IMG/VR virus record: IMGVR_UViG_3300045258_000017
Span: 1-20,296 of that record
Reading direction: 5' to 3' (one strand)
DNA: 20,296 nt
Source of the DNA: a virus
In this document: one piece after another, positions 3,644-15,384 of the stretch
How the letters are laid out: the number at the start of each line of letters is the position of its first letter
Numbering within the stretch: position 1 is the first letter of the stretch
Notes under the pieces: model-generated
Databases searched by the model: none
Told to the model about the DNA's origin: nothing
Seen by the model: only the letters and a program-made list of their open reading frames with translations
Program-made: the position numbers and the translations under genes

Positions 3644-4308
3644 CCAAACCAACTCCCGCTGGTGCCGTAGTTAGTGCTTGCGTAAGGGGAAACGGGGGCG
3701 GGGATGCCGTAGTTCGTGGCCTGCGTCGGGGCGCCGTAGCTGGACTGCCCCATGAGGCCGCCGAGGCCCGCGCCGATCTGGCCGATGGTGTTGGCCCAGT
3801 TGTTGCCCTGCGATATCGCGCCGTTGGCCTGTGCGATCCCCTGATTCTGCAAGTAGCCGCCGACATTGTTGGCGTTGTTCATGCCAGCAACACCCGTCTG
3901 CGATGCCGCGTTCTGGCCCAGTCCCGCCAGCCCCATCTGCTGCCCGAACCATTGCGCCTGATCGGCAGCGGCCAGTCCGTTGATATGGCGCATCCGGTCA
4001 ATGTCGGTGCCGCCTGAGTAGAGCGAACCCAAGGCCGCATGGCTGGCGTTGAGCCCGTCGAGCATTTCCTTCTTCTGGTAGGCGTAGAACGGCGAGGCTT
4101 GGTAGCCCCCTGCCAGTGCCGCCAAACCCTGCTGCCCGGCCTGCATGAACGGCTGTTCGTCACCGCGCATGGTGTCGAACATGTATTTGGAGTAGTCGAT
4201 AGCCTGCTGGTTCGACTGCGTTTGCGCCTTGGTCGCGTCTTTCGCGGCCTTGTTCTGGAAGTACCCGCCGATAAGCGAGCCAACGATGGGAACCGCTGCG
4301 GCTGCCAT
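3640..4308 (-). CDS. Ejection protein, P22 gp7-like
   Basis: This 222-residue protein starts with a short hydrophobic Gly-rich helix (PIVGSLIGGYFQNKAAKDAT) typical of the N-terminus of gp7-type ejection proteins. A Gln/Ala-rich helical region follows. From about residue 120 the protein is Gly/Asn/Gln-rich (NNANNVGGYLQNQGIAQANG) and ends in a Ser/Tyr/Pro-rich tail. In P22 the corresponding protein is delivered to the cell with the DNA and is needed for genome entry. The gene begins at the TAATG overlap with the GNAT-like gene and ends in an ATGA overlap with the next ejection protein gene. The hydrophobic start, composition and position agree; no catalytic residues are seen. Confidence 0.68.
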   Translation of the reverse strand: MAAAAVPIVGSLIGGYFQNKAAKDATKAQTQSNQQAIDYSKYMFDTMRGDEQPFMQAGQQGLAALAGGYQASPFYAYQKKEMLDGLNASHAALGSLYSGGTDIDRMRHINGLAAADQAQWFGQQMGLAGLGQNAASQTGVAGMNNANNVGGYLQNQGIAQANGAISQGNNWANTIGQIGAGLGGLMGQSSYGAPTQATNYGIPAPVSPYASTNYGTSGSWFG

Positions 4309-4730
4309 TACAGATTCCTTGTGTAGAAAATCACGTCCATGTGTTCGCCGCCTTTCAGCGCCGCATCGGGCAGTTGCATGACGGGCACGAAGCCGAGGCG
4401 TTCGACGTAGGCGCAGGCCCGACGATTGCGTGCGTTCACGAAGCCAATCAGGCAGCGATACGGGGTGTTCTCGCGCATCCAGTTGAGCGCCTGATACCCC
4501 AGCGCGTCGGCGTTACTTCCCGGCAAGGCGGCCAAGTGCCCTTCCGCCATTGCTCCGCTGTGATGCGAGAACACGAAGCAGGCCGAATCGTCGTCGGGCA
4601 TGAGGTACACCCGCCCCGCGTCAATCGGCGGGGACCATTCGCCTTGCGTCAGGTCGTCGGTGATGTACGGCCACACGGACGGATGCCGCAGCACCTTGGC
4701 GATGCGGGCCGGATCGGTGACCGGATTCAC
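4308..4730 (-). CDS. GNAT-like N-acetyltransferase fold protein in the tail/ejection region
   Basis: This 140-residue protein uses a GTG start overlapping the upstream stop (GTGA). The C-terminal half carries the late GNAT pattern: a helix, then IGFVNARNRRACAYVERLGF (about 95-114), resembling the Asn/Arg-rich acetyl-CoA-side helix followed by 'ERLGF' in GNAT enzymes. The N-terminal half (VLRHPSVWPYITDD) matches small GNAT-like proteins found in the virion gene cluster of many podoviruses. The normal GNAT pyrophosphate-binding loop (Q/RxxGxG/A) is not clear, so it may be a virion component with a GNAT fold rather than an active enzyme. A possible acetyl target cannot be deduced. Confidence 0.62.
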   Translation of the reverse strand: MNPVTDPARIAKVLRHPSVWPYITDDLTQGEWSPPIDAGRVYLMPDDDSACFVFSHHSGAMAEGHLAALPGSNADALGYQALNWMRENTPYRCLIGFVNARNRRACAYVERLGFVPVMQLPDAALKGGEHMDVIFYTRNL

Positions 4731-4945
4731 TTCTCTTTGCTGGCCTGAATCGCCATCGCCAGGAAGTCCACCCGCGTCGGAGAGGTGCAGGACACCTTCA
4801 TTGCGAACTGGCGCGAATTACCCAAGCGACGGCGAATCACCGGCACGCAGAACGCGCCTTCTTCCCCAAGGAAGTGTTCGGTGGCCGCGCCGTAGTTGTG
4901 GGCATCCTTCGCCACCCAAATGGTCACGTAAGCATCGCGCGACAT
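4727..4945 (-). CDS. Small tail protein resembling the detached C-terminus of a gp10-like tail hub protein
   Basis: This 72-residue protein reads MSRDAYVTIWVAKDA, then a Gly-Glu-Glu-Gly turn, VIRRRLGNSRQF, and a final strand near SPTRVDFLAMAI. Intact P22 gp10-type (DNA stabilisation) proteins commonly end with a segment of the form 'DPxVxLxWSxDGGxTW...LGxxGxYxxRVxWRRLGxxRxFxFxVxxSDPVxxxLxxA'. This protein matches that layout over its whole length, though degenerately (VAKDAHNYGA in place of the SxDGG-x-TW box). It begins at a TAATG overlap with the homing endonuclease gene and ends in a GTGA overlap with the GNAT-like gene. I infer that it is the C-terminal module of the gp10-like gene, now a separate frame. 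The family pattern is from memory, so an alignment is needed. Confidence 0.6.
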   Translation of the reverse strand: MSRDAYVTIWVAKDAHNYGAATEHFLGEEGAFCVPVIRRRLGNSRQFAMKVSCTSPTRVDFLAMAIQASKEK

Positions 4946-5445
4946 TAGGCGGCCCTCACATATTCGCCGTGCATCCGGCGCCGGGCCTCACTAACGACCA
5001 ACTCAGCCAGGTCGAAGTCGTCGAAATAGCCAAGCTTCTTGCGCCTCCCGTGAGCCTCCACGTAGGTTTCCCACTTGCCGAAGTGCTTACTCCAGCTAAC
5101 GCCCTTGACGCCGCTCGTATTCGTACGCGCCAAGCCTGTGTTCCAAACGCTCTGTGAATCTGTGACTTCCCGAAGGTTTTCGGGCCGATTGTCAGAGCGG
5201 ATGCCGTTGATGTGGTCGAGTATTCCGACCGGCCAGCGGCCATTTTTGATAGCGAAGATGATCCGGTGGGCCTTGTAGAGAACTCCGTCTATGCGGATAA
5301 GGCGATAGCCGTCGCGGGAAACGCAGCCGGCCGGCACATCTGCTCGCTTGCGCGGATGCTTTGTTTTCCAGAACAGCTCGCCGCCTTCCAGTCGGAAGTG
5401 CGCGTGCAGGGTTTCGATACCAAGTTCCAAAGCATCCCGGCTCAT
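4945..5445 (-). CDS. HNH homing endonuclease with C-terminal AP2 DNA-binding domain
   Basis: This 166-residue protein starts at ATG 5445, overlapping the stop of the gp10-like gene (ATGA). Residues 12-60 match the usual lead-in of this family (a start resembling 'LHAHFRLEGGELFW', then SRDGYRLIRIDGVLYKAHR). The HNH core is AHR at 59-61 plus DHINGIRSDNRPENLR at 78-93, which hold the metal-binding and catalytic His/Asn residues. Residues 109-160 (TSGVKGVSW ... KWETYVEAHGRRKKLGYFD) form an AP2 domain. These are free-standing mobile endonucleases that cut phage DNA and spread by gene conversion. Hand counts on three 60-base lines here give about 55-58% GC, below the general level of the window, which fits recent arrival. 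It sits between two pieces of what may have been one tail gene. Confidence 0.92.
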   Translation of the reverse strand: MSRDALELGIETLHAHFRLEGGELFWKTKHPRKRADVPAGCVSRDGYRLIRIDGVLYKAHRIIFAIKNGRWPVGILDHINGIRSDNRPENLREVTDSQSVWNTGLARTNTSGVKGVSWSKHFGKWETYVEAHGRRKKLGYFDDFDLAELVVSEARRRMHGEYVRAA

Positions 5446-7565
5446 GGCAGCGGCACCGTGCAAATATCGTTGTCAGCAATGGGCGGGCTGATCGTGACGA
5501 AGGTCAGGCCCGCATCGACGGAAACCCGCTGCACGGCAGTACCACCGCCACCGGAACCCATCACGATATGGCTACCGTTGATAGCGGCGGAGTAGTAGCG
5601 ATTGCTGCCGTCCACCAGCGAGTGCGTGAAGGACGCGCCGTTGTTGGTCGTGCGGTAAATGCCGTCTTCCAACATGCCAATCACGAAGTAGCCCGTGTCG
5701 CCCACGATGGTCAGCGGGGCATGGGTGGTCGTGCCGCCCATCACCGTCCACGTGGTCTTCGGCGCGGTCGAATATTCGTAGGCGCTGCCGGTGTTGGCGC
5801 CGATGAGGAAGCCCGTACCGTTGAATCCGACAGCGGTCCAGTTGCCCGCAATCGGGTGCGTGACCGTGCTGCCGCCATCGTCGGACACGTAGATGCCCGA
5901 ATCCGTAGCGATGACCACACAGCCCAAGCCCGCGCAAATGTCGTTGCCGAAAACGGCGCCGACTGTCGCACCGGCCTGCCAGGTCACGCCCTGATCGTGG
6001 GAATAGAACAGCTTGAGCGTGCCCGCGTCGTCGCGCATGGCAACGAAACGGCCCGTCGTGCTTTCGTAGCAGATGCCGCGACAGCTCGTGAAGGTGGACG
6101 CCGAGGCGGTGAAGGACTGGCCTCGGTTGGTGGAGTAGTACAGTTCCCCCGTGGACTTGGCGACCACCACCGCAGACGGGCTGGCGGCGCAGTAATCGCC
6201 TGTACTGGGGAAGGTGTAGTTGGTCCACGTCGCGCCGGTTTGCGAGGTCTTGGACGTGCTGGCAACGCCCGTGGAGAAGAACAGGCCTACGGTGGAATCG
6301 GGAATGACAGGGACGGCAGGCTCGACCGATTCACAGGTGGTCGTGCCGTAGCCGGTGTCACACTCCAACCGCAAGGCATGCAACGTGACGCGGTTGCCCT
6401 CGTCGTGGAGGACGCCGGGGATGAAGTAGCGGTTGATCTCGTCGCAGCCTTCCAGCCCCGCGTAGTCCCAGTCGAGCTGGTACAAGATGCCGGAGTTGTA
6501 CGCGCCGCCATACCAGCCGCCGTTCCATTCCACCAGCGTGTTCAGGCGCCAGCGGTCAAGGCCGATGGTTTCGCGGCGGTGCCAGATCGGCCGACCTGCA
6601 CGCGCAGAACTGAGGCAGTCGTAGCCCCAGGTATGACCATCGGGGAAGGTGAAATAGACGACCGAATGTCCGCGCGATTCGTAGGTGAATACGAAGCACT
6701 TGGACAGCTCGCAGGCTTGCCATGCGGTTTCAATCGCAGGCGTGGTGATGCGGACGGGGTTGTACCCGCTCATGTAGTAGCCCGCGCCGTTCGACCCGAG
6801 GAAGAACAGGCGGCTATCGACTTCGCACACACCGTGCGGGGAGCCGGCGCCAATCGGAACCGGCGAACCAATCCGGGTGAACAGGATGTGGTTGGCGATA
6901 TCGTCGGGGTTGGTGGTGTTCTGGAAAATCTCCAGCGTGCGCTCGTTGAACGCATACACCTCGCCCGCGTAGGCCGCCAAGCACACCAGACGGTCGGGCG
7001 CAGACTCGGCCTGATAGGTTTCGGTGCTGTCCCAATTCAGTCCGTCAGCGACAGCGCAGTTGGCGAAGTAGCGGCGCTGCTGCTCGATGCCCAAGAAGCG
7101 GGAGTTGAGGTAGATGAGCGAGCGCGCGCCGTGAAAGGCGTCGTCACTAATCTGCGTCCACGTCTGCGCGGCAATGTCCCAAATCCAGCCGTTCGGGCCG
7201 TCCGAGAACATGACCTGTCGCACCGCGCCGCTGTCGTTCTGGTTGTGGCTGATCCACACGCGGCCACGGCCGGGGATCGTCCCGAGCTGCGTGACCGTGC
7301 CGTTCACCGCCACTTGGTAGGCGTGGGTGTCCGCGACGACGAACAGGTTGCCCTCGACGTTGCGAATGGCGCGATGCGGACCAGCGCCGAGGTCAGCGAA
7401 GGGGCGTAGGCCGGGGAGTTGCACCAGCTTGACCGGCGAGCGGGTGCCTTCGCCTTCCGCATACTCCGGCCACAGGTTCACTACGTCTTGGTCGGAGAAT
7501 GGCTTGCTAACGTCCGAGTAGCAGCCAGTCGGCAGCGGTTCGGGGCGCCACTTGGGAGCAGCCAT
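5442..7565 (-). CDS. P22 gp10-like tail hub / DNA stabilisation protein fused to a BNR (Asp-box) beta-propeller
   Basis: This is a 707-residue protein. Residues 1-424 look like the P22 gp10 packaged-DNA-stabilisation family (472 residues in P22): an N-terminal GCYSDVSKPFSDQDVVNLWP, the VWISHNQNDSG and FSDGPNGWIWD strands, YAFNERTLEIFQNT, and FFLGSNGAGYYM. After TLHALRLECDTGYGTT the family pattern stops. Residues 425-707 carry repeated Asp-box/BNR motifs: STNRGQSF (478), SHDQGVTW (522), SDDGGSTV (561), TTNNGASF (638) and SVDAGLTF (682), with weaker copies near 438 and 599. The spacing of about 40 residues suggests a sialidase-type propeller. The protein would sit below the portal/adaptor and hold DNA and tail parts together. 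It overlaps the adaptor gene by TGATG. The propeller replaces the normal C-terminus. Confidence 0.82.
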   Translation of the reverse strand: MAAPKWRPEPLPTGCYSDVSKPFSDQDVVNLWPEYAEGEGTRSPVKLVQLPGLRPFADLGAGPHRAIRNVEGNLFVVADTHAYQVAVNGTVTQLGTIPGRGRVWISHNQNDSGAVRQVMFSDGPNGWIWDIAAQTWTQISDDAFHGARSLIYLNSRFLGIEQQRRYFANCAVADGLNWDSTETYQAESAPDRLVCLAAYAGEVYAFNERTLEIFQNTTNPDDIANHILFTRIGSPVPIGAGSPHGVCEVDSRLFFLGSNGAGYYMSGYNPVRITTPAIETAWQACELSKCFVFTYESRGHSVVYFTFPDGHTWGYDCLSSARAGRPIWHRRETIGLDRWRLNTLVEWNGGWYGGAYNSGILYQLDWDYAGLEGCDEINRYFIPGVLHDEGNRVTLHALRLECDTGYGTTTCESVEPAVPVIPDSTVGLFFSTGVASTSKTSQTGATWTNYTFPSTGDYCAASPSAVVVAKSTGELYYSTNRGQSFTASASTFTSCRGICYESTTGRFVAMRDDAGTLKLFYSHDQGVTWQAGATVGAVFGNDICAGLGCVVIATDSGIYVSDDGGSTVTHPIAGNWTAVGFNGTGFLIGANTGSAYEYSTAPKTTWTVMGGTTTHAPLTIVGDTGYFVIGMLEDGIYRTTNNGASFTHSLVDGSNRYYSAAINGSHIVMGSGGGGTAVQRVSVDAGLTFVTISPPIADNDICTVPLP

Positions 7566-8185
7566 CAGCGCGGGCGCATCCGCAGCGGGCTACCGCCATA
7601 GGCGCGTTGCGATTCCTCGCGCTGGGCGTTCATCAGCGCGTCGGCGTATTTGTGTTCCCACAACTGCAACCGGGAGTCCTGTCCGAGGAACGGCACGGAC
7701 TCGACCAGGCAGGCGTAGATGAAGACTTCGGGATAGCGGGCCAGCGTGGTCGCATTGGCCCAGGTAATGTCTTTCAGCGCCGTGGGACGCGCGTAGTAGC
7801 TGCCCAGCACGGTTCCCGAGGCGGTCGGCCAGAAGGTCAGCGAATCGCCATTGAGCGCCGCAAAACGAGTGGGAAGCCCGCCATAACCGTCCGCGATGTA
7901 GCGGCGCATCCGGTCGAGGTCCACGATTTCCAGCGGACGTTCACCACTGAAATACAACTCTTTCAGTTCGATGAGATCGGAAGGCAGCGCAGCGGCATTG
8001 CTCGACACGGCCACTGAAAGCGTGGTGACCATCGTGGAGGCGCGCAGGTCGCGATAGGCGCGGTTCTCGCCCATGCCGATCATCAGGTCAGCCGTGTTGA
8101 GGCTGAAGGACGGCGTGCCAATGTCGTCGCCCTCAATCAGCGTCAGGACGGCCTGGCGGAAGGCGTTGTAATCGGCAAACTGCAT
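7565..8185 (-). CDS. Head-tail adaptor protein
   Basis: This 206-residue protein begins MQFADYNAFRQAVLTLIEGD and contains an N-terminal helical part, a stretch of strands (LPSDLIELKELYFSGERPLE, about 68-87), an aromatic GDSLTFWPT strand, and a C-terminal helix with RYPEVFIYACLVESVPFLG. This is the usual layout of the podovirus 'phage adaptor' proteins that ring the portal and connect it to the tail hub. It lies directly upstream of the gp10-like gene, as expected, with a TGATG overlap. Its own ATG follows the previous stop immediately (TAAATG). It is similar in length to other family members. A tail tube or gatekeeper role is possible but amounts to the same position in the virion. Confidence 0.75.
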   Translation of the reverse strand: MQFADYNAFRQAVLTLIEGDDIGTPSFSLNTADLMIGMGENRAYRDLRASTMVTTLSVAVSSNAAALPSDLIELKELYFSGERPLEIVDLDRMRRYIADGYGGLPTRFAALNGDSLTFWPTASGTVLGSYYARPTALKDITWANATTLARYPEVFIYACLVESVPFLGQDSRLQLWEHKYADALMNAQREESQRAYGGSPLRMRPR

Positions 8186-8473
8186 TTAGATGCGCCCAGT
8201 CCAGATGCGATAGGGGGCCGCGTCCTCGGAGTTGAGGAAGGCGGCGGCGTGCGCGGGGTTGCCCATGAACTCTTCAAAGGTCAGGCCGCGCTTCTTGCGC
8301 CAGTTCTCGCTGACCACCCACGGAATCTTGGCGGCGTGGCGCATTTCGCTGGAGCCGACCTGGCCCGAATCGCGCAGGTACTTGGCGTGCAACAGGACGG
8401 GTTCAACGTCCTGCGCTTCTTGGTGATAGACCTTGCCGTCGTCGGTCTGGACGCTGACGGTTTTCAGGTCCAT
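8186..8473 (-). CDS. Conserved phage protein of unknown function
   Basis: This 95-residue soluble protein contains IPWVVSENWRKKRGLTFEEF (about 50-69), followed by NPAHAAAFLNSEDAAPYRIW. The same type of motif recurs in small proteins coded between capsid and tail genes of podoviruses, but I know of no assigned role. It has no signal peptide or membrane segment and is rich in charged and aromatic residues. The start overlaps the stop of an 18-codon frame (TGATG), and the stop is followed immediately by the adaptor gene. A head-completion or chaperone role is only a guess from position. Confidence 0.6.
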   Translation of the reverse strand: MDLKTVSVQTDDGKVYHQEAQDVEPVLLHAKYLRDSGQVGSSEMRHAAKIPWVVSENWRKKRGLTFEEFMGNPAHAAAFLNSEDAAPYRIWTGRI

Positions 8474-8529
8474 CAGACCTTCACCTTCACGCGGGCGGCG
8501 GTCGTGTTGGAATGCGTGTGGGCGGCCAT
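8473..8529 (-). CDS. 18-residue micro-ORF linking the decoration-like and 95-aa genes
   Basis: The frame from ATG 8529 to TGA 8473 encodes MAAHTHSNTTAARVKVKV. It exactly fills the gap between two genes. Its ATG overlaps the stop of the decoration-like gene (TGATG), and its own TGA overlaps the next ATG (TGATG). Its last codons, GTGAAGGTGAAGGTC, also look like a ribosome-binding stretch for the downstream gene. It may encode a real peptide with a beta-like basic end, or act only as a ribosome bridge in the coupled operon. Confidence 0.5.
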   Translation of the reverse strand: MAAHTHSNTTAARVKVKV

Positions 8530-8801
8530 CAGTAGATCGCCACCATCAGCGTTGCCGTGGTGCCCGTGGCCTTCACAGCCAGCACGCGAAACGGCACGAT
8601 GGAGCCGGCTGGCATGGTCACCGCTACGTCAGCGGAGCCATTGGCGGGCGAGCAGGTAACGATGCCGGCGCCACCGACATAGACCGCGACAGCACCCGCA
8701 AAGATGTTGGCGTCGGACGGGGTGATGGCCTGCGCGCCATCGGGCAGAACAGGACACTGAGAGCTGGCGGTCGTGATGACGCCAAGGGCAGTCGTTGCCA
8801 T
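8529..8801 (-). CDS. Decoration / minor capsid-like protein
   Basis: This 90-residue protein is rich in Ala, Thr, Val and Gly and almost entirely beta-like. It includes ANIFAGAVAVYVGGAGIVTC and ends VLAVKATGTTATLMVAIY. Small proteins with a 'YVGGxGxVxxxxxxGxxVxxxxVxxGxxxPxRxxxVxATGTTAT' pattern next to the major capsid gene usually belong to capsid decoration or head-accessory families in tailed phages. It has an excellent ribosome-binding site (GGAGG five bases before ATG 8801). It is the first gene after the terminator that follows the capsid gene, so it would be made at lower transcript level. There is no signal peptide. The exact virion site is unknown. Confidence 0.6.
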   Translation of the reverse strand: MATTALGVITTASSQCPVLPDGAQAITPSDANIFAGAVAVYVGGAGIVTCSPANGSADVAVTMPAGSIVPFRVLAVKATGTTATLMVAIY

Positions 8802-8810
8802 GAAACCTCC

Positions 8811-8849
8811 AAAGAAAAGGGGCCGCCCCGGTTTCCCGAGGCAGCCCCT
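8811..8849 (-). terminator. Intrinsic terminator after the major capsid gene, with GAAA tetraloop
   Basis: On the minus strand a 14-bp stem (5' arm AGGGGCTGCCTCGG, 3' arm CCGGGGCGGCCCCT, two G-U wobbles) closes a GAAA tetraloop and runs straight into TTTTCTTT. It sits between the major capsid stop (8877) and the decoration-like gene (8801). The U-tract lies just upstream of that gene's GGAGG ribosome-binding site. Confidence 0.93.
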
Positions 8850-8876
8850 AAAGGTGAAACAGTGCCGCTAGTTGGT

Positions 8877-9812
8877 TTAGCTCAGGTCGCGCGCAACGGC
8901 GTGGGCGTCGAGGTTGTCCATCACGAGCGCGTATTCCATCGTGAGCAACATCTTCTCCGCGTCACCCGTCTTGGCGAGCGGCGAACGCACCAGCGGGTCG
9001 AGCGTGCCGAAGGACACGTGGTCGAGGTCCACCAGATATGCGGCGGCATCGCAGAAACGATCCGGCACGACCTTGAACTTGCCGAAGTCCGACACGTACC
9101 AGTCATACGCGGCCGTGATGGTGGACTGCTCCACCTTCTCAAAGCGGGTCGCGTTGCCAGCGAAGGCCGAGGTCAGCGCCTTGTCAGCCGGACGCACGAT
9201 GAGCAGGGTCGGCTCGCCACCCGCGTTGTACGCGGCCTGCGCCATGCCCTTGAGCAGAGCTTCCGACCACGCACGGGCAGTACCCGCGACCGGCGCGGTG
9301 TTGGTGGACGGGACCGGGAACACGCCCGCGCCCGCACCCACAGAGCCCTGGCGCACCCAACCGGCCAGACCGCGAGTCTGACGGGCAGTACCCGCCGCAC
9401 CCGCGTTGTACGTGGTGTTGCCGATGATGGCCACTTCCACGTCACGCTTGATTTCCTTGGTCTTCTTGAGCGTCTGGTAGTCGATTTCCTTGTCGCGGCC
9501 AGCCTTGTCAACGATGTTTTCGGTACGCGAGACGATGAAGCTCTTGGCGCTGATCTGCGCGTACTGGTCCCAGCGAGTCGGCTGGGCGACAGCGGCAAAC
9601 GAGGTGTAGTCGTCGCCTTCCAGTTGCGCGTTGTTGGCCGCAGACGCGAGCGAGTCGGTCAGCCACTCGGGCTTACGGGTGGCGATCTTCTTTTTGCGGA
9701 TCGCGGAGTAGAACGGGGTGGCGGTGGGCGAGATATTGTCGATAACGTCGGACAGTTCCTCGCGCAGACCGATGGCGGAATACGTGGTGAGGGTGTTGGT
9801 GATAATGGTCAT
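8877..9812 (-). CDS. Major capsid protein (SU10-like / DUF5309 type, HK97 fold)
   Basis: This is a 311-residue protein. The N-terminus MTIITNTLTTYSAIGLREEL, followed by ISPTATPFYSAIRKKKI, is characteristic of the DUF5309 / SU10-type major head protein. QPTRWDQYAQISAKSF and a helix rich in Lys/Glu (KTKEIKRDVEVAIIGN, about 117-132) follow, matching the N-arm and spine helix region of HK97-fold capsids. The C-terminal half has DWYVSDFGKFKVVPDRF (about 238-254) and ends in LDAHAVARDLS. It assembles into the icosahedral shell around the scaffold. It follows the scaffold gene after only a few bases and is closed by a strong terminator, as often seen for highly expressed capsid genes. The length is typical. 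Confidence 0.88.
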   Translation of the reverse strand: MTIITNTLTTYSAIGLREELSDVIDNISPTATPFYSAIRKKKIATRKPEWLTDSLASAANNAQLEGDDYTSFAAVAQPTRWDQYAQISAKSFIVSRTENIVDKAGRDKEIDYQTLKKTKEIKRDVEVAIIGNTTYNAGAAGTARQTRGLAGWVRQGSVGAGAGVFPVPSTNTAPVAGTARAWSEALLKGMAQAAYNAGGEPTLLIVRPADKALTSAFAGNATRFEKVEQSTITAAYDWYVSDFGKFKVVPDRFCDAAAYLVDLDHVSFGTLDPLVRSPLAKTGDAEKMLLTMEYALVMDNLDAHAVARDLS

Positions 9813-9816
9813 GGTC

Positions 9817-10758
9817 TTAAGCGTTCCTTCGCTTGGCGGCCATCAGCGCCATCAGGTCGTCCTCTTTGCCGGATTTGGCTCGGCGCAGGGCTTCCTTGTA
9901 GGCGTCTGATTCGGCCTTGTCGTTTTGGGCCGGGCCGGGCTTGAGAGCCTTCGGCGGCGGCGGCTTGATTTGCTTGTCTTTGGCGGTGACGCGCGCGGTC
10001 GCCTGCTTGTCGGCCTGCCACGCCTTGCGGGCGAGCAGATAGACCCGATGGTCAAGGAACGCGGCCATGTCGCCGTCGCTGTAGCCCTGAGCGCGCAAGA
10101 ACGCCTCCATTTCGCCCAATTCCTTGGTGCGAACGGCCGGGTCTTTCCACTCGGGCAACTTTTCCTGCAACGCCTGGGATTGCTGGTTTACCCAGTCCTG
10201 GCGCTTGCGTTCCTGCTCCTGCTGGGCGCGCTGTTCGATGACTTGGCGCTCACCAATGGCCTGCTGGAATCGCTGAATCTTCTGCTGCATCGTGGCGTTG
10301 TGGCGCACCCACTCAATCGGGTCGTCGTTCGCCATTTGGGCCAAGACCTGCTGGTCCCCGACAAGCTCCGTCTGCAACTGGCCGATGAGTACGTCAAGCT
10401 GGTTGGCGTAGTGGCTACGCTCCTGCGTGACGCGCTCCTGCTGGGCCTGTGCTTCGCGTTTGGCTTCTGCGGCTTCTGCGGTCTTGCGCCGATAATCGGC
10501 TTCCTTCATCTGGCCGGATTTCCACGCCAGAATTTCGGACTTCTTGGCCTTTAGGTCGCCAAGGTCAAACTCGGGGTCTTCTTCGACCTGTTCGGCTTCC
10601 GGCTCTGCTTCCTCCGGGGTAGCCTCAACTTCTTCCTGCTCCTCAGCGTCTGCGCCCTCGGCGGCTGGTTCCTCGCGCTTGCGGGCCAACTGCTCCAGAA
10701 CGGCTTCGTCGCTGCTTACATCGTCGTTGAGTTCCGTTTCCGGTTGACTCTGATTCAT
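9817..10758 (-). CDS. Scaffolding protein
   Basis: This is a 313-residue protein. I chose ATG 10758 (MNQSQPETELNDDVSS) because GGAG lies six bases upstream; an in-frame ATG at 10770 would add four residues. Residues 20-65 are extremely acidic (EEQEEVEATPEEAEPEAEQV). A long Gln/Glu/Arg/Ala coiled coil spans about 80-205 (AEAKREAQAQQERVTQERSH). A compact segment around EFLRAQGYSDGD-like residues 220-250 follows, and the C-terminus is Lys/Pro-rich with basic residues (KQIKPPPPKALKPG; ending MALMAAKRRNA). An acidic N-terminus, long coiled coil and basic helical C-terminus upstream of the capsid gene are the standard features of scaffold proteins that guide procapsid assembly. Confidence 0.85.
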   Translation of the reverse strand: MNQSQPETELNDDVSSDEAVLEQLARKREEPAAEGADAEEQEEVEATPEEAEPEAEQVEEDPEFDLGDLKAKKSEILAWKSGQMKEADYRRKTAEAAEAKREAQAQQERVTQERSHYANQLDVLIGQLQTELVGDQQVLAQMANDDPIEWVRHNATMQQKIQRFQQAIGERQVIEQRAQQEQERKRQDWVNQQSQALQEKLPEWKDPAVRTKELGEMEAFLRAQGYSDGDMAAFLDHRVYLLARKAWQADKQATARVTAKDKQIKPPPPKALKPGPAQNDKAESDAYKEALRRAKSGKEDDLMALMAAKRRNA

Positions 10759-13305: not shown

Positions 13306-14564
13306 TAGGCGACCTTGGAATTGGGGTACTTGATGGGCTTGGCCCAGTTCATGTCGTTCGTCATTTCAGGCGCCGCGATCTGCGCGTAACGGAACATGTC
13401 CGCGCCGTGGCTCCACTCGTCATGGCAAGGGGCGCCAGGCTCGCCCGTGCTGGTCGGCACGTTGCGCTTGTATCGCTTGAGGCACTGAATCAGTCGCTCG
13501 CAATCGGGCTTGTGGAAGTAGGTCTGCGCAAAGCCCATGCGGGCGGTGCGGATGCCTGCCTCGACGGGGATATTCGCCACAATCTCCACATCCCAGCCCA
13601 GCGCCTCCATCACTTGCTTGGCGCTCTTGCCGGTTTGCAGGTTGGCGTGCTCGCCATCGTGGGGAAGGAACATCTTTCCCCAGTTCAGGTTGAGCTTCTT
13701 CAGCTCGGCGCTGTACCAATCCAGCGTTTTGTGGTCGTCCTCAAACGCCTTGATGCAGCGCAGGGCCGAGTGATGGCGCTGGAACAGTCCAATCGCGGTC
13801 TTGTCGTTCCAGCCCAAGTCCAGCACCACATGGACCTTGAGCGCGGGGTCGTAGGGGAACAGGCCCATGCGCCCCTTCTCCTGCGCCTGGGCGACCTCAT
13901 CGGCATAGATGGCGCCTGTCACCGCAGGCTTGCACAGCCCTTCCCAGATGTTGCCGTAGTCCGCTTTAGGCATGGTCGCCAGCGCGTGCTTGCGCTCGGC
14001 TTCCAGCACCTCGGGGAACCACGGGTTGTCCGAGTAATTGATTTTCACCACCACCGAATCAGGCGGCGGGTTCTCGATGAACCGGACGTAGGTTTCATCC
14101 GTGTCCAACTCGGGGTTGAGGCTGATCCAGATTTCCGAGCCGTCCTTGCGGATGGTCGGAATCAGAATGTCCCAGCTACGCTTGCTGACCGCTTGCGCTT
14201 CTTCGACCCATACGTCGTCCACGCCCTCAAAGGATTTAATGGACTCGTTGGTCTGGTCGCTCAGTCCGGAGAAGATGAACTCCGAGCCGTTGGCGCCCTT
14301 GATGACCGTCTGCTGCACTTCGTAGAACGCGCCCAGGCCCAAGGCTTCGACCTGATCGCCCAGCAGCTTGTGAACCGAATCCTTGATGGACTTCTGAATC
14401 TCGCGCGTACACAGCACGCGGCGCTTGGTGTTGGATGCCCGGATCAGTAGCGCCCGAGCGATGCCCCAGCTCTTAGCGCCGCCACGGCCTCCATGCAAAA
14501 CCTTGTAACGGTGCGGCTCAAACAAGCATTGCAGCTTGTCGGGAAACTCAATCGGGCTTGACAA
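13305..14564 (-). CDS. terL: Terminase large subunit (ATPase and nuclease of DNA packaging)
   Basis: This 419-residue protein has both motor and nuclease signatures. Walker A is HGGRGGAKS at 24-32 and Walker B is DDVWVEEA at 116-123. The coupling motif WISLNP is at 146-151. The nuclease domain has VLDLGW with Asp 249, PHDGEH with Asp 303, and a late acidic motif HDEWSHGADMFRY at 381-393. This layout fits the Terminase_3/6-type proteins that cut concatemeric DNA and pump it through the portal. The start is uncertain: TTG 14564 (MSSPIEFPDK) overlaps the end of the small subunit gene and gives a sensible N-terminus, with GTGAAG close upstream. The stop overlaps the portal start by one base. All key residues appear intact. 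Confidence 0.95.
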   Translation of the reverse strand: MSSPIEFPDKLQCLFEPHRYKVLHGGRGGAKSWGIARALLIRASNTKRRVLCTREIQKSIKDSVHKLLGDQVEALGLGAFYEVQQTVIKGANGSEFIFSGLSDQTNESIKSFEGVDDVWVEEAQAVSKRSWDILIPTIRKDGSEIWISLNPELDTDETYVRFIENPPPDSVVVKINYSDNPWFPEVLEAERKHALATMPKADYGNIWEGLCKPAVTGAIYADEVAQAQEKGRMGLFPYDPALKVHVVLDLGWNDKTAIGLFQRHHSALRCIKAFEDDHKTLDWYSAELKKLNLNWGKMFLPHDGEHANLQTGKSAKQVMEALGWDVEIVANIPVEAGIRTARMGFAQTYFHKPDCERLIQCLKRYKRNVPTSTGEPGAPCHDEWSHGADMFRYAQIAAPEMTNDMNWAKPIKYPNSKVA

Positions 14565-14820
14565 ACTTCACCGTGAGCCCCGTCAGCAGGGGATTGTCCT
14601 TGTCGCCTGCCACGGTCAACGGGAGCAGCTTCGGATAGATGCGCTCCCAGTAGGCGGATTCGTTCTTCGGGTCTTCCTTGACCCATGCCAGCATTCGGTC
14701 GGCGCCGCCCATCGCGTCAGCTACCTGCGCGATCACGTCTTTGGCGGCCTTGCCGAGCTTGTTAGGCGAGCCTTTCGGACGACCCTTGCCCTTTCGGGTC
14801 AGATTCTCTGCCGGGTCCAT
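14548..14820 (-). CDS. Probable terminase small subunit
   Basis: This 90-residue protein begins with a basic, AT-hook-like segment, RKGKGRPKGSPNKLGKAAKD (about 9-28), then a helix DVIAQVADAMGGADRMLAWV, KEDPKNESAYWERIYPKLLP, and a C-terminal strand LTGLTVKFVKPD. Short proteins with 'GRPKGSxNK' and 'xExPxxFWxxIYPKLLP' placed just before the large terminase gene are usually annotated as small terminase subunits, which recognise phage DNA and hand it to the motor. It is shorter than P22 gp3 (162 residues), so the call depends on motif and position. It overlaps the large subunit start by 17 bases and the preceding 58-residue frame by 59 bases. Confidence 0.68.
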   Translation of the reverse strand: MDPAENLTRKGKGRPKGSPNKLGKAAKDVIAQVADAMGGADRMLAWVKEDPKNESAYWERIYPKLLPLTVAGDKDNPLLTGLTVKFVKPD

Positions 14821-14938
14821 TGTCAGTCTCTACTTTAGTGGAGCTGTCTTCCGACTTGGCTCCGAATATCCGCGCCCAGTTGGCTGCGGCCTCGTCCTCT
14901 GAAACCTGTTGCGGTCGCCGCCCTGACCCCTTGCTCAT
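14762..14938 (-). CDS. 58-residue phage protein overlapping the small terminase gene
   Basis: The frame from ATG 14938 to TAA 14762 gives MSKGSGRRPQQVSEDEAAAN, then WARIFGAKSEDSS and a hydrophilic tail. Small phage proteins starting 'MSKGSxxRP' with a following 'WxxIFG' are frequent near terminase or tail genes and are labelled hypothetical. It overlaps the upstream stop as ATGA. Its last 59 bases overlap the small terminase gene in another frame. The N-terminal half looks like a true conserved peptide; the tail, read in the overlap, is probably unconstrained. The function is unknown. Confidence 0.62.
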   Translation of the reverse strand: MSKGSGRRPQQVSEDEAAANWARIFGAKSEDSSTKVETDNGPGRESDPKGQGSSERLA

Positions 14939-15384
14939 CGCGCGACAGGCAGCGGGCGACGACGGGCCAGGCTCATCAGTCCAGTCGGCGCGATGCCCTG
15001 CGGCTGATAGCTGCCCGGATTCATCGGGTGGTAAATGTTCACGCCCGTATCGTTGCCACTCAGCCCGCCCGGACGCGGACCCGGAAAGCTGCCGCCCGGA
15101 TTGATGCCCGAGCCGTCATAGCCGTTCGGGTGCAGCGAGTGCATGTAGTCCATGAACGGATGCTGGCCCTGGTCCCGCAGACCTTGAGCGAAGTCGAAGC
15201 GCGTACCCGGCGCACCGTTCCAGCCCAAGCCTTGCAGGTAAGTGTTGTAGCCGCCCATCTGGCCGTGATGGCCGAGCGCACCGAGCCCGGGCGAACCACC
15301 GCTACCGCCGCCCACATCGGGCGACTGCCACGGGCCTAGCCCCATCGGGTTGTAGGGCTGCGGCTGGAGGGGTCGGTTGAACAT
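14935..15384 (-). CDS. Gly/Pro-rich phage protein of unknown function
   Basis: This 149-residue protein starts at ATG 15384, overlapping the upstream stop (TGATG). It is dominated by Gly, Pro, Asn, His and Tyr: PLQPQPYNPMGLGPWQSPDV, then a Gly/Ser linker (GGGSGGSPGLGALGHH), LQGLGWNGAPGTRFDFAQGL, HPFMDYMHSLHPNGYDG and a second Gly/Pro stretch. It is probably largely disordered. It has no signal peptide or membrane span. Its position just before the terminase genes suggests a virion or assembly accessory, but nothing in the sequence identifies the role. Confidence 0.6.
   Translation of the reverse strand: MFNRPLQPQPYNPMGLGPWQSPDVGGGSGGSPGLGALGHHGQMGGYNTYLQGLGWNGAPGTRFDFAQGLRDQGQHPFMDYMHSLHPNGYDGSGINPGGSFPGPRPGGLSGNDTGVNIYHPMNPGSYQPQGIAPTGLMSLARRRPLPVAR

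Follow-up and report, generated by a model that had tools for sequence, protein, structure and literature searches.

A predicted phage tail hub gene in two pieces, with an Asp-box propeller and an HNH endonuclease gene between the hub body and its C-terminal module

In phages, the tail hub closes the genome channel and joins the tail to the portal-adaptor ring. Hubs of the PHROG 578 kind, namely, P22 gp10, Sf6 gp8, the Pam1 "needle head," and the Pan3 stabilization protein, are single chains of ∼440 to 475 residues. The nozzle proteins T7 gp12 and SU10 gp17 are also single chains and combine a propeller with a platform made from the N- and C-terminal parts, with further domains (fibre dock, nozzle domains) inserted in loops (PMC6702177, PMC9509320); for the SU10 hub (PMC9509320) and the T7 hub (PMC6702177), it is established that both ends of the chain form the platform, which contacts the adaptor. 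Genes in pieces are already known for phage enzymes: nrdA of Aeh1 (with mobE) and gene 43 of the Aeromonas phages 44RR and 25 are each divided into two open frames that flank a free-standing homing endonuclease gene or other sequence, and working split proteins have precedents in Aeh1 NrdA and the phage 25 gene 43 polymerase (PMC2988022). Here, we describe a predicted tail hub gene in two pieces in a 20,296-base virus record, IMG/VR IMGVR_UViG_3300045258_000017 (the whole stretch is called the window), which holds the virion module of a short-tailed phage on its minus strand. No report of a split tail hub was found in the open-licence literature.

The locus is like the P22, Sf6, Pam1, and Pan3 hubs in the sequence family of the hub body and the C-terminal module (C-module), in the fold found by modelling and Foldseek, and in its position after the adaptor gene, but it differs in having a separate gene for the C-terminal platform segment and a second propeller attached to the hub body. 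It shares a propeller, a platform from both chain ends, and loop-borne additional domains with T7 gp12 and SU10 gp17, for which no detectable sequence kinship to this hub is reported and whose inserts lie at other sites. Unlike the Aeh1 and gene 43 enzymes, which are known to work in pieces, the locus would encode a hub, a structural protein, to which a putative folded domain has been added. Its parts are the following.

6330 to 7565, minus strand: hub body (residues 1 to 412 of a 707-residue protein), with the N-terminal platform strands, the hub propeller core, and the last platform strand before the loop, as predicted from PHROG 578, our own hub profile, and AlphaFold2 (AF2)
6294 to 6329, minus strand: junction at a permissive platform loop (residues 413 to 424), which bears inserts in single-chain hubs
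5442 to 6293, minus strand: added Asp-box propeller (residues 425 to 707, stop codon included), predicted from seven Asp-box-like motifs and Pfam BNR
4945 to 5445, minus strand: free-standing HNH endonuclease gene (HNH_3 plus AP2-like) with its ATG at 5445 and a TAATG overlap with the start of the 72-residue gene, predicted from HNH_3 and PHROG 99
4727 to 4945, minus strand: C-module gene of 72 amino acids, predicted from our own profile, PHROG 578, and shuffled controls to supply five hub platform strands as a separate polypeptide

The hub family match is divided between two genes. The 707-residue protein (gene at 5442 to 7565, minus strand) matched positions 7 to 401 of the 486-position PHROG 578 profile ("head closure Hc3") with its residues 10 to 412 (E value of 1.7e-80), and the C-terminal platform segment of the same family, positions 408 to 471, was found as a separate gene, in the 72-residue protein (E value of 7e-4). 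With a hub profile of 469 positions built from 21 intact phage hubs, residues 10 to 421 of the longer protein matched positions 4 to 405 (250 bits) and residues 12 to 70 of the shorter one matched positions 407 to 466 (24.8 bits), with no overlap between the two matches. The pieces thus cover one family member end to end, as a first-pass annotation made from the sequence had predicted when it took the 72-residue gene for the missing C-terminal module. That annotation also had the hub follow its family to residue 424 and then switch to unrelated sequence; the match does stop partway, at about residue 405 to 421 rather than sharply at 424. On a profile of the C-module made from 171 intact hubs, the 72-residue protein scored 32.3 bits, and the best of 20,000 shuffled versions reached 9.2 bits, by which a chance match was rejected; it was the only one of 444 open reading frames (ORFs) in the window to rise above noise, the next scoring 4.7 bits. 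No case was found in which the 72-residue protein formed an unrelated family beside hubs with a matching end of their own, since the C-module hits that were looked up proved to be the ends of intact hub genes. Profile matching therefore gives strong support for the split in homology and confirms the predicted hub gene in two pieces, with the 72-residue gene as the missing C-terminal module.

The family label that had been proposed, Pfam PF11134 (Phage_stabilise), did not hold, as Pfam scans gave no match to it for either the window hub or an intact relative, L048. Both match PHROG 578, which is therefore the safer label, and the kinship with P22 gp10 comes from a profile search and from the structure modelled for L048. 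The 72-residue protein also matched positions 527 to 591 of the 595-position PHROG 19101 (E value of 2.5e-6), a family of unknown function that ends in the C-module and whose first 500 positions have no match to this hub, so the C-module may also be fused elsewhere.

In intact relatives, the single chain comprises a central propeller and a platform beta-sandwich built from both chain ends. The L048 model has a predicted local distance difference test (pLDDT) score of 90 and matches P22 gp10 at a template modelling (TM) score of 0.84 to 0.85. In L048 numbering, the break site lies in the loop that links platform strands 381 to 395 and 405 to 411, just before the last five strands, and this loop is the least certain part of the model (pLDDT of 59, residues 391 to 400). 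By analogy with the SU10 and T7 hubs, the 72-residue protein would make up most of the adaptor-docking platform. When the 707-residue protein was modelled alone with AF2, residues 40 to 370 were mostly above a pLDDT of 90, and neither of the platform-forming chain ends was confident. Its core matches the P22, Pan3, and Sf6 hubs at TM scores (by target) of 0.63 to 0.66, and the alignment to solved hubs spans 362 to 385 columns, versus 475 to 501 for L048, the two models having been made with different alignments. A trimmed alignment (A8) was folded in place of another (A6), in which the C-modules of relatives were placed on the propeller. The unconfident platform ends and the shrunken alignment of the protein modelled alone fit a missing partner.

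The propeller that the first-pass annotation saw appended to the hub is supported by seven regular Asp-box-like motifs at residues 440, 478, 522, 561, 599, 639, and 682, with a spacing of 38 to 44 residues; none of 20,000 shuffles gave as many. Scanned alone, residues 425 to 707 matched Pfam BNR at 31.7 bits (cutoff, 27), and a model of the region from its single sequence had pLDDT values of about 30 to 60. Although the fold model is not confident, the natural reading of this segment is a seven-bladed propeller, which would be the second in the protein besides the hub's own.

An independent parallel, as judged from its sequence, is found in a second IMG/VR contig, IMGVR_UViG_3300020048_001122 (L067). 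After its hub body come a Gly_rich_2 domain (∼265 residues, E value of 4.6e-13) and a TAG stop, and an ATG 8 nucleotides (nt) past the TAG opens a separate 76-residue C-module (97.5 bits) that starts at the same loop. L067 is thus like the window in that the body ends after an added domain and the C-module is separate from the same loop; it is unlike the window in that the domain is Gly_rich_2 rather than an Asp-box propeller and no HNH gene lies between the pieces, an HNH-like gene being present upstream on the other strand. Two relatives of L067 with 94 to 95% identical bodies are unsplit. The ratio of nonsynonymous to synonymous substitution rates (dN/dS) of the split module is 0.26 and 0.14 against these two intact alleles, which give 0.11 against each other over the same segment; this supports present constraint on the module but is not proof of it, as part of the divergence may predate the split.

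Searches with single sequences (the 707-residue protein, the 72-residue protein, the hub body, and the propeller) found no close relatives, and hub relatives were gathered with alignment queries. Across all scans, 291 distinct complete single-chain hubs with the C-module were found, along with one hub split at the loop (L067) and four broken elsewhere (two by TAG codons only and two by frameshifts; 0/4 at the platform loop). With the L067 C-module as the query, 19 of 50,697 phage records were hit. The break loop carries inserts of 10 to 87 residues in 63/171 distinct single-chain hubs, by which alignment-based count it is a preexisting insertion hot spot of the hub family. Common inserts at the loop are short repeats of the type LLTESGDxLITESGD (L034, L037, L061, L078, and many others), which possibly form a small repetitive beta structure. 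A second insertion site lies in the propeller core near profile positions 91 to 133, where L244, L284, L295, L311, L148, L151, and L153 have extra stretches.

We propose, with a probability of roughly 0.75, that the hub is made of two polypeptides, with the C-module completing the platform in trans and the loop left free to bear a C-terminal domain, here the Asp-box propeller. The propeller would be attached at the insert-tolerant platform loop, the first chain would end after it, and translation from a second start codon would supply the last five platform strands as a 72-residue protein of their own. This short chain would bind the hub body, complete the platform, and enable docking of the hub to the adaptor ring; the extra propeller would hang outward from the platform edge, perhaps as an adhesin or a fibre dock. 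The likely order of events would begin with the gain of a domain at the loop, together with an early stop codon and a start of its own for the C-module, and the HNH gene would have entered afterwards. Several points weigh against this proposal. L067 is the only other split among about 300 hubs, and the window is a single metagenomic fragment without an allele series. The 72-residue protein is divergent (about 20% identical to the L067 module), and the conserved SDDGGxTW motif is missing from it. Alignment depth may account for part of the poor modelling of the platform ends, and the joint assembly of the two chains into a hub is something that we infer.

The first-pass annotation had pictured one insertion of about 1.4 kb inside an ancestral gene, and a related explanation is that a single HNH homing event caused the split, as for mobE in Aeh1 nrdA, with the propeller coming along or arriving later. 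The locus shows the pattern of a gene split by a homing endonuclease, with 291 single-chain relatives and an HNH gene exactly between two open pieces, and there are precedents in nrdA/mobE and gene 60/mobA (PMC2988022). The HNH gene itself was correctly located; it matches HNH_3 (62.2 bits; cutoff, 24.8; E value of 3.4e-17) and PHROG 99 (E value of 9e-58) and represents a common free-standing kind of endonuclease gene (relatives in 3,399 phage records), but its start is most likely the ATG at 5445, in an ATGA overlap with the hub stop, rather than the TTG at 5463 first assigned. The HNH protein and the 72-residue protein both begin with MSRDA (window positions 5430 to 5445 and 4930 to 4945), the DNA having GATGCTT in common and differing in the other codons, and relatives of the HNH protein match it only from residue 17 on, as if the HNH gene had borrowed the start of the C-module, which it may have taken over. 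In three relatives, too, endonuclease genes directly adjoin the hub gene (L067, 2765 to 3325, minus strand; L008, 2466 to 2954; and L019, 1856 to 2434), as would be seen if homing had repeatedly targeted the neighbourhood of the hub. However, the propeller stands between the hub body and the HNH gene, and the old reading-frame junction is thus a different one from the HNH junction. L067 is split with a different domain at the same start site and has no HNH gene between its pieces; the propeller and the HNH gene are therefore separable, the endonuclease is not needed for a split and is unlikely to be its general cause, and a single insertion is probably not what happened. The G+C content at third codon positions (GC3) of the HNH gene, 0.71 versus 0.78 to 0.83 in the other genes measured, fits its later arrival, and for gene 43 of phages 44RR and 25, the endonuclease may likewise have entered an already split gene (PMC2988022). 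Endonuclease insertion alone thus does not explain the split, and we consider a single homing event an unlikely cause.

It is somewhat less probable still that the 72-residue protein is a leftover, that is, that the hub works without its old C-module because the propeller or another protein took over, and that the frame has not yet decayed. The divergence of the 72-residue protein, which per position exceeds that of the hub body, and the loss of its SDDGGxTW motif speak for this reading. The frame, however, is open; it begins with an ATG of its own, overlaps tightly with the genes on either side, and has the codon bias of the neighbouring genes (GC3, 0.78), and the invariant G, RRLG, and P positions of the family are kept. 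The separate module of L067 is conserved (dN/dS of 0.14 to 0.26), and in related phages, the platform docks the hub on the adaptor (PMC9509320).

An assembly artefact or a chimera of two phages would be conceivable for a 20.3-kb fragment of which no second copy was available, but it was rejected as very improbable given the clean overlapping junctions, the similar codon bias, and the independent example in the L067 contig. Self-splicing elements often carry HNH genes, but restoration of a single chain through splicing of an intron or intein or through programmed frameshifting was rejected as scarcely credible, since no Rfam family matched in the window, the HNH frame takes up the whole interval between the pieces, overlapping by 1 to 4 nt, and leaves no room for a ribozyme, the HNH frame is out of frame with both pieces and so is no intein, and about 500 nt separate the hub stop from the module start, too far for a frameshift.

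The proposed two-chain hub is embedded in a chain of overlapping genes, in which the two pieces have the following neighbours.

7565 to 8185, minus strand: SU10-type adaptor gene directly upstream of the hub (PF24175, E value of 2.6e-24), with a TGATG overlap with the hub start
4308 to 4730, minus strand: acetyltransferase-like gene downstream (PHROG 651, E value of 1.8e-6), with a GTGA overlap with the stop of the 72-residue gene, continuing the coupled chain

The adaptor is the expected neighbour and docking partner of a hub, and the minus-strand gene set as a whole comprises terminase, SU10-type portal, capsid protein, SU10-type adaptor, hub, HNH endonuclease, the 72-residue protein, the acetyltransferase-like protein, and ejection proteins. 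Both pieces are open at the positions first assigned, and every junction from the adaptor to the acetyltransferase-like gene is an overlap of 1 to 4 nt (TGATG, ATGA, TAATG, and GTGA). This is the layout expected of translational coupling, which the first-pass annotation had also suggested, and the T4 nrdA/mobE junction, UAAUGA, is similar (PMC2988022).

Whether hubs of short-tailed phages are split recurrently at this platform loop, with a subunit of ∼75 residues completing the platform in trans and C-terminal domains (Asp-box propeller, glycine-rich) exchangeable without disturbing the hub fold, is a tentative generalization to which we give rather less than an even chance. The break loop appears to be a site at which extra parts have repeatedly been hung on phage tails. 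If the docking domain is made from two chains, even a core hub tolerates breakage, and one loop is a preferred place for new domains. The two independent cases, one with near-identical unsplit alleles, offer a natural split-protein system for testing how tail parts are added and how homing endonucleases settle inside essential genes.

The nearest relative of the window in its virion genes is L010 (IMGVR_UViG_3300019135_000004), with 53% identity in the portal, 65% in the major capsid protein, and 62% in the terminase large subunit. At the same place (13709 to 15154), it has a hub of a different family, PHROG 3287, an exchange of hubs within a conserved module, and it was therefore rejected as an unsplit allele of the window hub.

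Two prophage regions among the hub relatives look TAG recoded: L139, from Dyella jiangningensis (CP007444.1), and L150/L234:3970-4044, from Rhodanobacter glycinis (NZ_RCZB01000001.1). Their hub frames are interrupted by TAG only, 3 and 5 times, respectively, and neither region has a long gene that ends in TAG. Reading TAG as sense raises the ORF coverage from 7,650 to 10,410 of 11,242 bases in the Dyella region and from 8,526 to 9,999 of 11,086 in the Rhodanobacter region, the latter of which contains a tRNA with the anticodon CTA.

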